Part shown: piece after piece, positions 665 to 38,630 of the stretch
How the letters are laid out: every line of letters begins with the position of its first letter
Position numbering within the stretch: position 1 is the first letter of the stretch
IMG/VR virus record: IMGVR_UViG_3300031857_000525
Span: 1-38,630 of that record
DNA: 38,630 nucleotides
From: a virus
Reading direction: 5' to 3' (one strand)
Notes under the pieces: generated by a model
The model's input: the letters and a program-made list of their open reading frames with translations, nothing else
What the model was told of the DNA's origin: nothing
Database searches by the model: none
Position numbers and translations under genes: made by a program

Positions 665-796
665 CGCTAACAAGTGTTATACAATATGGCGGCTGACGTG
701 CTTCGATTAAACATTTATTTTCAATTCAACTTTGGTGCTTCGTATCGGGCTTTCTGCTGAAAATCCGCCACATCGTATAGCCCCGATGCGTTATAT
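665..796 (-). repeat. attC-like site b (132 bp)
   Basis: The ends on the plus strand are CGCTAAC (665-671) and GTTATAT (790-796). The inner arms are 678-692 and 765-779: 15 nt pairing with only two wobble-type differences (TATACAATATGGCGG against CCGCCACATCGTATA). The size, end boxes and imperfect inner stem match an integron attC site. It separates the Tad2-like gene from the 87-residue gene. Confidence 0.75.
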
Positions 797-834
797 GAAA
801 TAGGGCGGTAGAGCTTCGATTGAATATTTCGTTT

Positions 835-854
835 AGAAATTTAAAATAAAAGCC
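835..854. repeat. 20-bp inverted repeat, left copy, flanking the Tad2-like gene
   Basis: Bases 835-854 are the exact reverse complement of 1209-1228. A further 10-bp match (790-799 against 1269-1278) lies outside at similar spacing. The repeats therefore flank the Tad2-like gene as imperfect ends of about 65-70 bp. Confidence 0.8.
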
Positions 855-871
855 CCACCGCACACATTCAA

Positions 872-1174
872 TTAGTCAAGTATGCACCAATCATTTTCCA
901 ACACATCGGATGGACTTGCTACCCAACCGTAAACCGTATTGTCAGGATATACCATTGCTAATTGGTTTTTGTAGCGGATACTTCCACCGCGTTTAGCAAA
1001 TTCATCCTTTACGGTTTGCGGAAGTGATTGCATTTTTGGCACAATCTCTTCGTTAATCTCTGATGGCACTTGTTGGAAAATGAACATTCCTTTTCCGTTC
1101 CATCCTTGTCTTGCTACTCTCTTACCTTCTTTTAAGGCTTCAATAGCTTGTCCGAAATTTTGGTTTTCTACCAT
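872..1174 (-). CDS. Tad2-like Thoeris anti-defence protein (DUF2829)
   Basis: The product is 100 residues, the usual size for DUF2829. It has the family pattern: an N-terminal NFGQAIEALKEGKRVARQGW block (residues 5-24), a central hydrophobic MFIF strand, and a C-terminal W-x-A-S-P-S-D-x-L-x-x-D-W block (about 85-97). Known members include Tad2, a phage protein that sequesters the cyclic ADP-ribose-type signal made by Thoeris TIR enzymes and so prevents cell suicide. Assignment to the family rests on these motifs; anti-Thoeris activity is inferred. The gene lies alone between two attC-like sites and is flanked by inverted repeats (835-854 and 1209-1228), so it appears to be a mobile cassette. 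Confidence 0.8.
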   Translation of the reverse strand: MVENQNFGQAIEALKEGKRVARQGWNGKGMFIFQQVPSEINEEIVPKMQSLPQTVKDEFAKRGGSIRYKNQLAMVYPDNTVYGWVASPSDVLENDWCILD

Positions 1175-1208
1175 TTTACTTTTTGTGGGTTTTACGAAGC
1201 CCGCCCAA

Positions 1209-1228
1209 GGCTTTTATTTTAAATTTCT
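1209..1228. repeat. 20-bp inverted repeat, right copy, flanking the Tad2-like gene
   Basis: Reverse complement of 835-854, placed about 35 bases before the Tad2-like start codon. The transcript could close a stem around the whole gene. Confidence 0.8.
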
Positions 1229-1271
1229 TTTCGTGTTCCAAATGAAGTTTCTACTAAATAATCCCTACTTC

Positions 1272-1350
1272 ATATAACAGCACCTAACCAAAAGGCGCAC
1301 AAACGAACCGCTTAAAAATGCGCCCTTCGGTTAGCTGCAATCCGTTATGC
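1272..1350 (-). repeat. attC-like site c (79 bp)
   Basis: The end boxes are ATATAAC (1272-1278) and GTTATGC (1344-1350). The inner arms are CCTAACC (83-89 of the 1200s) with GGTTAG (1329-1334), and GGCGCA (1294-1299) with TGCGCC (1319-1324). The right end, including TTAGCTGCAATCCGTTATGC, closely matches the right end of site d, as expected of related attC sites in one array. Confidence 0.8.
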
Positions 1351-8006: not shown

Positions 8007-8739
8007 TTGAGTTAGTTGTTTGGTTTGTTTGAATTTTTTGAGGGAAAATACCACTCCAATTTTGACTCATTGAAAAGCGCACTGCAGCCACGAACTTCTC
8101 CTCTGTGGGGTAATCCTTCGCCCAAAGAGAGAAAGCCGTTTCTAAGCCTCTCTGAGTGTATCTCTGACCCTTTTCGGCTTTGTAAGGCAACCAAAGCTCA
8201 AGACCTTTTCTCAAATGATCCGGACAATGGTCGAGGATCAAATCCGATTTTTTCGGCTTTTTGGCTTTTTCCTTTTTTTCCCATTCAACCCCTTTTTTTT
8301 CTTTTAAAGAGTTAGAGTTAGAGTTAGAATAAGAGTAAGAGACTCGGTTATCCGTTCGGTTATCCGAATCGGATAACCGATTTTCATTTTTTTTCAATAA
8401 AGGATTTCCACCTTTCTTAGCATTTTCGCGGTTTTTTAAAGAAATAGAAAACTCCTTAACTATCTTTCTCGAAATTATTACACTCTCACCGGCCGCGTTT
8501 TTTTCAAACGAAAGGATAGCGAATTTTTCAATTTCGCTCAAATTTCGGATAACCGTTTCGGTTAACTCACCGGTTAACCGACTTATTAAAATTGGATCGT
8601 TTGGCATTTCCCCTGAGTTCTCAGGACGACGCATATAAATAATTAACTCGATAAGCAAACCTCTCGCGGAAAGAGAAAGCGGCTTAACGTCGTTAGCCCA
8701 ATCCTTAAAATTGAACTTAAACCAAAAATCGTTAGACAT
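7951..8739 (-). CDS. Phage replication initiator (wHTH, lambda O/DnaD type)
   Basis: ATG 8739 is the start (a TTG at 8745 is in frame), giving 262 residues. Residues 5-95 form an N-terminal winged-helix-like domain, starting F-W-F-K-F-N-F-K-D-W as in phage replication proteins. A low-complexity linker (about 118-150, Ser/Asn/Asp/Arg repeats) follows, and then a C-terminal helical domain with W-x-P-Y-K and W-A-K-D-Y-P-T elements. The linker DNA holds repeats of CGGTTATCCG that look like iterons, the same arrangement as the lambda origin inside gene O. The initiator likely binds its own gene and recruits the host helicase. A strong structured element precedes it (8741-8840). Confidence 0.75.
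   Translation of the reverse strand: MSNDFWFKFNFKDWANDVKPLSLSARGLLIELIIYMRRPENSGEMPNDPILISRLTGELTETVIRNLSEIEKFAILSFEKNAAGESVIISRKIVKEFSISLKNRENAKKGGNPLLKKNENRLSDSDNRTDNRVSYSYSNSNSNSLKEKKGVEWEKKEKAKKPKKSDLILDHCPDHLRKGLELWLPYKAEKGQRYTQRGLETAFSLWAKDYPTEEKFVAAVRFSMSQNWSGIFPQKIQTNQTTNSNGQIPRDQRDDALANWSL
8311..8340. repeat. 6-bp tandem repeat in initiator gene
   Basis: Five hexamers run in tandem: GTTAGA three times, then ATAAGA and GTAAGA. They encode the Ser/Asn/Tyr run in the linker. They abut the iteron cluster and could be an unwinding or spacing element. Confidence 0.8.
8345..8379. other. Iteron cluster, probable replication origin (core)
   Basis: The decamer CGGTTATCCG occurs at 8345-8354 and 8357-8366 in direct orientation and at 8370-8379 inverted. 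The last two form a TCGGTTATCCG-AAT-CGGATAACCGA palindrome. An A/T-rich run follows (8381-8400). More copies lie at 8546-8580. Repeated initiator sites within the initiator gene are typical of lambda-like origins. Confidence 0.65.
8546..8580. other. Second iteron group in initiator gene
   Basis: CGGATAACCG (8546-8555) is a fourth copy of the decamer in inverted orientation. CGGTTAACCG (8571-8580) is a one-base variant and a perfect palindrome, with a partial CGGTTAAC between (8559-8566). Confidence 0.55.
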
Positions 8740-37401: not shown

Positions 37402-37441
37402 CGCTATGTCTGACTGAATCAGACTTAGCGGGGAGTTAGGC
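37402..37441 (-). repeat. Half attC-like site e after the methyltransferase
   Basis: GTTAGGC (37435-37441) is the reverse complement of a consensus GCCTAAC box, placed 6 bases after the methyltransferase stop. A stem CGCTA-T-GTCTGA / TCAGAC-T-TAGCG (37402-37430) follows. No matching second end box is found before the next gene, so the site looks truncated or decayed at the array border. Confidence 0.55.
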
Positions 37442-37447
37442 GTAATG

Positions 37448-38401
37448 CTAAGACAGCCCTCCGAAAATATGAGCGATGACATCAACAGTCCAGCCATTTC
37501 CTATCATTTTTCTAATTTGGTTTTCGGTAGCCACGCCATCAAAGTAATTTTCAGGCACGGTTTGTAATCTGCAATATTCCTTTATTGTGTAGTAGCGGAA
37601 AGGCAAATTGTTTTTGAATGCGTCAGGGTGTCGTCCTATTGGCCTTGTTGTTAAAACATTGTCTTTTGCTACTGTGGTTAAACAGTTGCTTTTATCTCTG
37701 TTTGTGGCTCTCACTTCCAGGCATTGAGTAATCGGTATTTCTTTATTGTAATCCTCTCGTTTGCCTTTGTCGTTTAATCTTCTGCCCAAAATAGTAGCTT
37801 TGTTCAATCTTTGTCCTCTTATTGCACTTGGTCCAATCATTTCAGTATCTTCTAAAATATCAATCAACTTTATGCCTTTATCGGTTGGCTGTTCAATCGG
37901 AAAGTTTGCCCAGTATAATCGTTCTCTATTTTGGGCAGATACCAAAGCACTGTTTATCTTCACAGGTTCAACTCCTAAATGTTCGGTTATCACTTGCTCA
38001 AATTCCTTTTTCATAACTACATTTTCCAAAAGCCAATATTTCGGTTTGCATTCTTTAATCAGCCTTACAAATTCAAAAAACAATTTGCTTCTTGGGTCGT
38101 CAAAGTTTAGTTGCTTTCCGCTAAAACTAAATCCTTGGCAAGGACTTCCACCTATCAATAAATCAATTTGCGGTAAATCCGTGCCTTTAATATCGGTAAC
38201 ACTTCCAAGTTGTATTGTATTAGGGTAGTTGTGTTGTGTTACTTTGATGGCGTGTTTATCAATCTCCGAAGCATAATATTTGCCATAGGAAATGCCTGCC
38301 CTGTTGAGTGCAATCTGTCCGCAACTCATACCATCGAATAACGAAAGCACTACGCCTAACACGGGTTTGGCAAAATTGCCGTTTTGTTCTTCTATCAACA
38401 T
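37448..38401 (-). CDS. DNA cytosine-C5 methyltransferase
   Basis: The motifs are complete: I (L-S-L-F-D-G-M-S-C-G, 19-28), IV (G-G-S-P-C-Q-G-F-S-F-S-G with Cys88), VI (L-L-E-N-V, 124-128), VIII (Q-N-R-E-R-L-Y-W, 157-164), IX (C-R-L-Q-x-V-P) and X (I-G-N-G-W-T-V-D-V-I). It methylates cytosine in a short target to shield phage DNA from restriction. The frame has 317 residues from ATG 38401, but the first 17 codons lie inside attC-like site f. GTG 38350, directly after the core box, gives 300 residues and a start close to the family's usual V-L-S-L-F-D-G. No partner endonuclease is present. Confidence 0.9.
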   Translation of the reverse strand: MLIEEQNGNFAKPVLGVVLSLFDGMSCGQIALNRAGISYGKYYASEIDKHAIKVTQHNYPNTIQLGSVTDIKGTDLPQIDLLIGGSPCQGFSFSGKQLNFDDPRSKLFFEFVRLIKECKPKYWLLENVVMKKEFEQVITEHLGVEPVKINSALVSAQNRERLYWANFPIEQPTDKGIKLIDILEDTEMIGPSAIRGQRLNKATILGRRLNDKGKREDYNKEIPITQCLEVRATNRDKSNCLTTVAKDNVLTTRPIGRHPDAFKNNLPFRYYTIKEYCRLQTVPENYFDGVATENQIRKMIGNGWTVDVIAHIFGGLS

Positions 38402-38478
38402 TTGTTCTTAATTATTAAGTTTAGTTTTTCAATTTGGCTTTCGGTTCGGCAACTTCGCCAAGCCCGAAACCGTTAGCT
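38354..38478 (-). repeat. attC-like site f (125 bp)
   Basis: The end boxes are GCCTAAC (38354-38360, full RYYYAAC match) and GTTAGCT (38472-38478). The inner arms are 19 nt long, 38362-38380 and 38448-38466, pairing throughout with three wobble positions. An extra GGTT on the right arm would bulge out, as extrahelical bases do in attC. It separates the zinc-ribbon gene from the methyltransferase gene. This is the best-formed site of the array. Confidence 0.85.
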
Positions 38479-38489
38479 TCAAGTTTTGC

Positions 38490-38630
38490 TTATTCGGGTT
38501 CTTTATCATCTAAGTCGCTATTCCCACACACGGGGCAGTAGCAATCTCCATAATCACCTGTGTCAGCAATCTGTCCACCTCCGTCTAATAGTTTTGAGCT
38601 GCCCCACCAACCGCACTTATCACATTCTGC
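38490..38630 (-). CDS. Zinc-ribbon protein, 3' part (same gene as at 1-310)
   Basis: This is the C-terminal end of the 107-residue zinc-ribbon gene. Bases 38504-38630 duplicate the left edge, and only 38490-38503 are new, adding the last codons and the TAA stop. The second CxxC pair lies in this piece. The stop is followed 11 bases later by the end box of the attC-like palindrome at 38354-38478. Confidence 0.75.
   Translation of the reverse strand, partial: AECDKCGWWGSSKLLDGGGQIADTGDYGDCYCPVCGNSDLDDKEPE
38504..38630. repeat. Right copy of 127-bp terminal direct repeat (contig closure)
   Basis: Exact copy of bases 1-127. See the left copy: it is best read as assembly overlap of a circular molecule. 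Confidence 0.95.

Follow-up and report, generated by a model that had tools for sequence, protein, structure and literature searches.

Why should one small phage gene lie between two nested pairs of inverted repeats? The question arises in IMG/VR virus record IMGVR_UViG_3300031857_000525, analysed here over its whole length of 38,630 nt (the window), in which a Tad2-like gene is framed in this way. We put a probability of about 0.8 on the answer that the gene is cargo of a mobile cassette, belonging to an integron-like system mostly of Bacteroidota viruses. The system is apparently an undescribed, virus-borne relative of bacterial integrons.

The Tad2-like gene and its inverted repeats

The gene (872-1174, minus strand; 100 aa) had been named a Tad2-like DUF2829 gene in the initial annotation, and the profile search bears this out, as PF11195 matches the protein with 74.6 bits (E=9.6e-21) against a curated cut-off of 25. 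The protein also matches SptTad2 (8wjd; E=2.9e-24), its nearest solved relatives include AcrIIA7 as well as SptTad2/Tad2, and it has the domain and overall sequence of the Tad2/AcrIIA7 family (PF11195). Anti-Thoeris activity of the protein is plausible, and the cargo is probably a sponge for nucleotide signals that works against host immunity.

The inner repeat (835-854 and 1209-1228) matches at 20 of 20 positions, as first described. The 10-bp outer repeat reported with it is present as the first 10 nt of a longer, 16-nt repeat, which matches at 15 of 16 positions between the distal end of the gene (790-805) and the proximal end (1263-1278), with a G.T pair at position 11. Measured from the 15-nt outer arms, the 20-nt inner arms lie 30 nt inside on the distal side and 35 nt inside on the proximal side. 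Both repeats are beyond chance; in 1000 dinucleotide-preserving shuffles of both flanks, the longest repeat reached at most 15 nt, compared with the 20 observed. The repeats had been placed inside the attC boundaries, but the outer arms start with the attC R boxes (TAAC/GTTA) and so are part of the sites.

When the neighbourhoods of related genes are compared, as the initial annotation had proposed, the end repeats recur around some genes only. The closest homologue, 93% identical, sits in another phage genome (L008) with neither repeats nor attC beside it, and the repeats therefore belong to the cassette, not to the gene. The Tad2-like genes in two other viral contigs (L013 and L017) are flanked by the same kind of end repeats, which brings the Tad2-like cargo genes to three with that of the window.

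The cassette array of the phage genome

The ends of the window overlap by 127 bases (1-127 = 38504-38630), and the record is therefore complete and circular, with a genome of about 38.5 kb. Its genes include those for a terminase, portal, capsid, tape measure and Sak4-like annealing protein, and the virus is therefore a tailed phage. From the relatives of its array, we infer that its host belongs to the Bacteroidota.

A simple detector of our own (AAC-N5-stem...stem-N1-GTT) finds five attC-like sites in the window, all on the minus strand, with AAC/GTT R boxes and paired L boxes, and shuffled DNA scores lower. They lie at 1712-1785 (the far array end), at 1276-1346 (upstream of the Tad2-like gene; score 17.4, shuffles at most 8), at 669-792 (the long site of the next cassette), at 167-361 (195 nt, with an ORF start inside) and at 38358-38474 near the contig join, with the start of a methyltransferase ORF inside. 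Because the genome is circular, the five sites form one array that wraps round the contig ends and is continuous across the join. The exact attC patterns have no match in the genome contigs, and the exact pattern of the long site has none in the viral contigs.

The array carries the Tad2-like gene, two hypothetical genes, a DNA methyltransferase gene and, spanning the join, one short unit. Cassettes with 15-nt end pairs lie on the minus strand at 359-671 (ORF 372-635) and at 37435-38360 (the DNA methyltransferase; ORF 37448-38401), while the cassette with the minus-strand ORF at 1458-1664 has poor end pairing, against the shared rule. With five sites by our detector and no recombinase, the array fits the definition of a CALIN, set by at least two attC sites with no integrase nearby. 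The kinds of tyrosine recombinase searched for are absent from the window genome, so the array probably moves in trans, and the window likewise has no putative attI beside a recombinase. A search for close relatives with the small terminase returned distant phages only, none with an array, so that neither an empty nor a filled copy of the window locus was seen.

Private ends in related cassettes

About 330 related cassettes each have their own private 15-nt end pair. We profiled the end pairing of 156 units beside attC-like sites at 63 loci. Within a unit, the match between the two ends is about 1.0 over positions 1-9 and loosens at position 10. At position 11 a G faces a T in 150 of the 156 units, and over positions 12-14 the match is about 0.95 or more; pairing extends through position 15 and is random after it. 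The arm sequences vary from cassette to cassette, and pairing between ends of different cassettes is at background. The same pattern, again with cross-pairing at background, is seen in 92 cassettes chosen without any end requirement, and the cassettes of the Polaribacter phage P12002L carry the same end signature.

We had considered private end pairing as unique to the virus group and rejected this, as a shorter form is found in both bacterial controls. In the Vibrio integron control, private pairing fades after about 9-12 bases and lacks the G.T pair, and two class 1 cassettes show private pairing of 12. Private ends are therefore general, whereas arms of 15 nt in which position 11 is nearly always a G.T pair are special to the virus group.

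Boundaries and orientation of the predicted mobile unit

Seven pairs of units that are at least 94% identical occur at different loci, some of them in related contigs. The members of a pair have the upstream core, the two arms and the gene in common, and their similarity ends with the terminal TAAC. The downstream core is common to none of the seven, so that in 7/7 informative pairs the core is upstream, and not in the order of gene and then own attC that defines integron cassettes. ORFs cross from the core into the unit in 34 cases and from the unit into the next core in 8, and genes are reversed relative to attC in 129 of 141 clear cases (129:12), compared with 25 canonical and 3 reverse in the Vibrio integron control. 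The comparisons show that units in these relatives have moved as entire blocks with the attC ahead of the gene, opposite to the arrangement in ordinary integrons.

From the shared upstream core, the divergence after TAAC and the counts of crossing ORFs and orientations, the Tad2 unit is predicted to be the 554 bp at 791-1344, which reads G^TTA...TAAC-attC-G^TTA in the canonical integron orientation on the plus strand, with the Tad2-like gene antisense to it. The site at 1275-1346 is thus taken as the travelling attC on two grounds, the detector score and the 5' core common to copies of related units. The downstream site at 669-792 had also been a candidate for the attC of this cassette and was ruled out by the unit-boundary comparison, which favours the upstream site.

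A minority of the cassette genes could be named. DNA methyltransferases dominate these, and the other named cargo includes single examples of Mom, a TAGT glycosyltransferase and an RNA ligase, among others.

Inner arms and the pseudoknot leader

Of the 245 cassettes that measure 260 nt or more, 18% carry their own inner pair of at least 12 nt, compared with 0.4% when ends are exchanged between cassettes, and 9.4% carry one of at least 16 nt, compared with 0% after exchange. In many double-arm cassettes a gap of about 34-38 nt separates outer from inner arm on the gene-start side and one of 29-33 nt on the other, a clustered spacing that the 35/30 of the window fits. Double-arm cassettes also exceed the others in length (medians of 787 and 397 nt, p = 8e-6), and DNA methylases are what many of their ORFs resemble. 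The segments between outer and inner arms look similar by eye in many of them; a regular expression caught only part of this inter-arm motif, which is therefore a lead.

The Tad2-like gene is preceded by a 27-nt leader (1186-1212, minus strand; AGCCTTGGGCGGGCTTCGTAAAACCCA) predicted to form an H-type pseudoknot with AGCC/GGCU and GGG/CCC stems, which overlaps the inner arm by 4 nt. Relatives of the leader, at L015, L017, L088-L106 and L160, are found in Bacteroidota-type phages upstream of a wide variety of small genes, at a distance of 7-12 nt from the start codon. Stem 2 is intact in 24/24 of them with GGG/CCC, GAG/CTC or GGA/TCC, and so covaries, and Rfam holds no match. The leader may serve to control translation or to sense a small molecule.

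This overlap bears on the possibility that the 20-nt inner pair is mainly an RNA stem, which would join the leader to the mRNA 3' end, hide the pseudoknot and set expression. The 5' arm does run into the AGCC strand of the pseudoknot, and both repeat pairs are joined in the mRNA fold. We nevertheless consider a mainly RNA role unlikely, because inner arms occur at similar end offsets in other cassettes with unrelated genes and the closest homologue has no such arms; such a role also leaves the fixed geometry and the private sequences unexplained.

A tyrosine recombinase at the array end

In viral contigs, the arrays end beside a gene for a small tyrosine recombinase (about 264-289 aa in complete copies), which is oriented as the cassette genes are. 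With the recombinase as the sole query, 332 relatives were obtained, of which 80 were kept, and around these 80 there are 186 signature units upstream, 1 downstream and 0 on the other strand. Where at least 1 kb of sequence is available upstream of the recombinase, units are found at 55 of 61 loci and units or attC at 59 of 61, compared with a background of 1 signature unit in 626 kb of unrelated viral loci. The commonest gap from the last arm to the recombinase ATG is 51-53 nt. Relatives have a TATATGTA-type motif where the array ends, commonly at this same distance before the ATG, and after TAAC the array-end sequence often reads TACTATATGTA. An attI-like TAAC followed by TACTATATGTA stands just before the recombinase start codon at L225-L229 and L240-L317.

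The linked recombinase is nearest to archaeal XerA and XerD. It resembles IntI (VchIntIA/IntI4, PDB 2a3v) in being a tyrosine recombinase with a C-terminal SPL motif and significant similarity, but the alignment with VchIntIA lacks about 43 residues where the IntI-specific insertion lies. No IntI scores over the TIGR02249 cut-off in the 43 array-bearing records, and an IntI-type integrase with the IntI-specific insertion is found neither in these records nor among the linked recombinases. In several recombinase contigs, hmmscan of the flanking genes identifies TerL, capsid, helicase and primase, and hallmark scans with PF03237 and phrog_9 give few matches. As the models tried detect TerL in only some of these contigs, a part of them could belong to other elements.

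Recombinases on Bacteroidota chromosomes were set aside as probably IS91-associated. One example is L116, where a chromosomal XerA/IntI-like recombinase (1525-2376) lies beside an IS91-like transposase and attC; this locus is possibly a related but separate element.

Relation to integrons and proposed mechanism

The same array might instead be an ordinary attC cluster from a bacterial-chromosome integron, moved by a classical IntI, with the virus-linked recombinase unrelated to it. Vibrio and class 1 cassettes also show private end pairing beyond 7 nt, attC clusters are already known in phages, including P12002L, with methylase cargo and no integrase reported (Qi et al. 2023, PMC9892861), and the same paper describes recombination of one P12002L attC with IntI1. 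This origin is quite improbable, since the array-bearing records searched hold no IntI above the cut-off, a different recombinase adjoins the arrays in fixed orientation and often at a fixed distance, and gene orientation and arm architecture differ. It is hardly tenable that a small transposon-like or MITE-like element carries the Tad2 gene, with the repeats as its termini: perfect inverted repeats do flank the gene, but each cassette has private ends that do not match those of other cassettes, on which ground we rejected this reading, and the units join through attC cores under a common end rule (GTTA, G.T at 11).

The cassette reading keeps much of what is known of class 1 and Vibrio integron cassettes, namely tandem single genes between palindromic AAC...GTT sites, private complementarity of a unit's own ends, movement of whole units, and a recombinase with a putative insertion site at one array end. 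The virus units differ from them in a 5/1-nt asymmetry beside the arms, in the attC upstream of the gene and in an optional second arm pair at fixed spacing.

We propose that the unit would be excised as a circle, in which the gene-sense strand would fold into a single long hairpin made up of the core and of the outer and inner arms from both ends. The predicted fold of this strand of the excised circle scores -53.4, compared with -43.1 +/- 2.7 when the inner flanks are shuffled and -41.8 for the other strand. By analogy with IntI and attC, the recombinase would use the folded strand, bind the two stem arms that flank the 5/1-nt bulge, and carry out insertion of the strand at GTTA, beside TATATGTA-type attI sequences. 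Private arms would keep the site foldable for any cargo, and the G.T pair, a C.A mismatch on the other strand, would mark the strand to use. The recombinase being absent from the window phage, its array may have been filled or rearranged in trans, or may be a relic. The mobile-looking frame of the initial annotation is thus supported in the form of an integron-type cassette, whose repeats would extend the attC hairpin of the excised circle. In PMC9892861, one attC site of P12002L recombined with IntI1 as the bottom strand, which, with the same ends in P12002L, gives indirect support to a folded-strand mechanism.

On balance we favour the wider proposal that Bacteroidota viruses own a platform for gene capture that is a sister to integrons and combines a non-IntI recombinase with reversed cassettes and strand-marked private hairpin arms, and that they use it to trade counter-defence genes such as methylases and Tad2-like sponges between virus genomes. 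The available part of PMC9892861 gives no account of private 15-nt arms, reversed orientation or a linked non-IntI recombinase, and the recombinase-linked, reversed-cassette type was not found in the open literature; as the search covered open papers, with subscription papers outside its scope, its novelty is provisional. If the proposal is right, these viruses would own an integron-like library and would not merely borrow bacterial attC sites. They would also offer a natural test of folded-DNA recombination evolving from Xer-type recombinases, because the linked enzymes do without the insertion that IntI is thought to need for reading folded attC. The arrays would further help to trace how phages acquire anti-defence genes, with any hypothetical array ORF a counter-defence candidate.

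Other features at the locus

A phage-encoded rhomboid-type membrane protease (PF01694; 2142-2723, minus strand) adjoins the array. An imperfect 34-nt inverted repeat at 8347-8578 starts with GTTA and lies outside the array, without the cassette signature. Some cassette proteins start inside an attC core, at 38401 and 308 in the window and at L140, L142 and L259, so that the attC stem and the arm encode the first residues of these proteins (for example ...FAKPVL).
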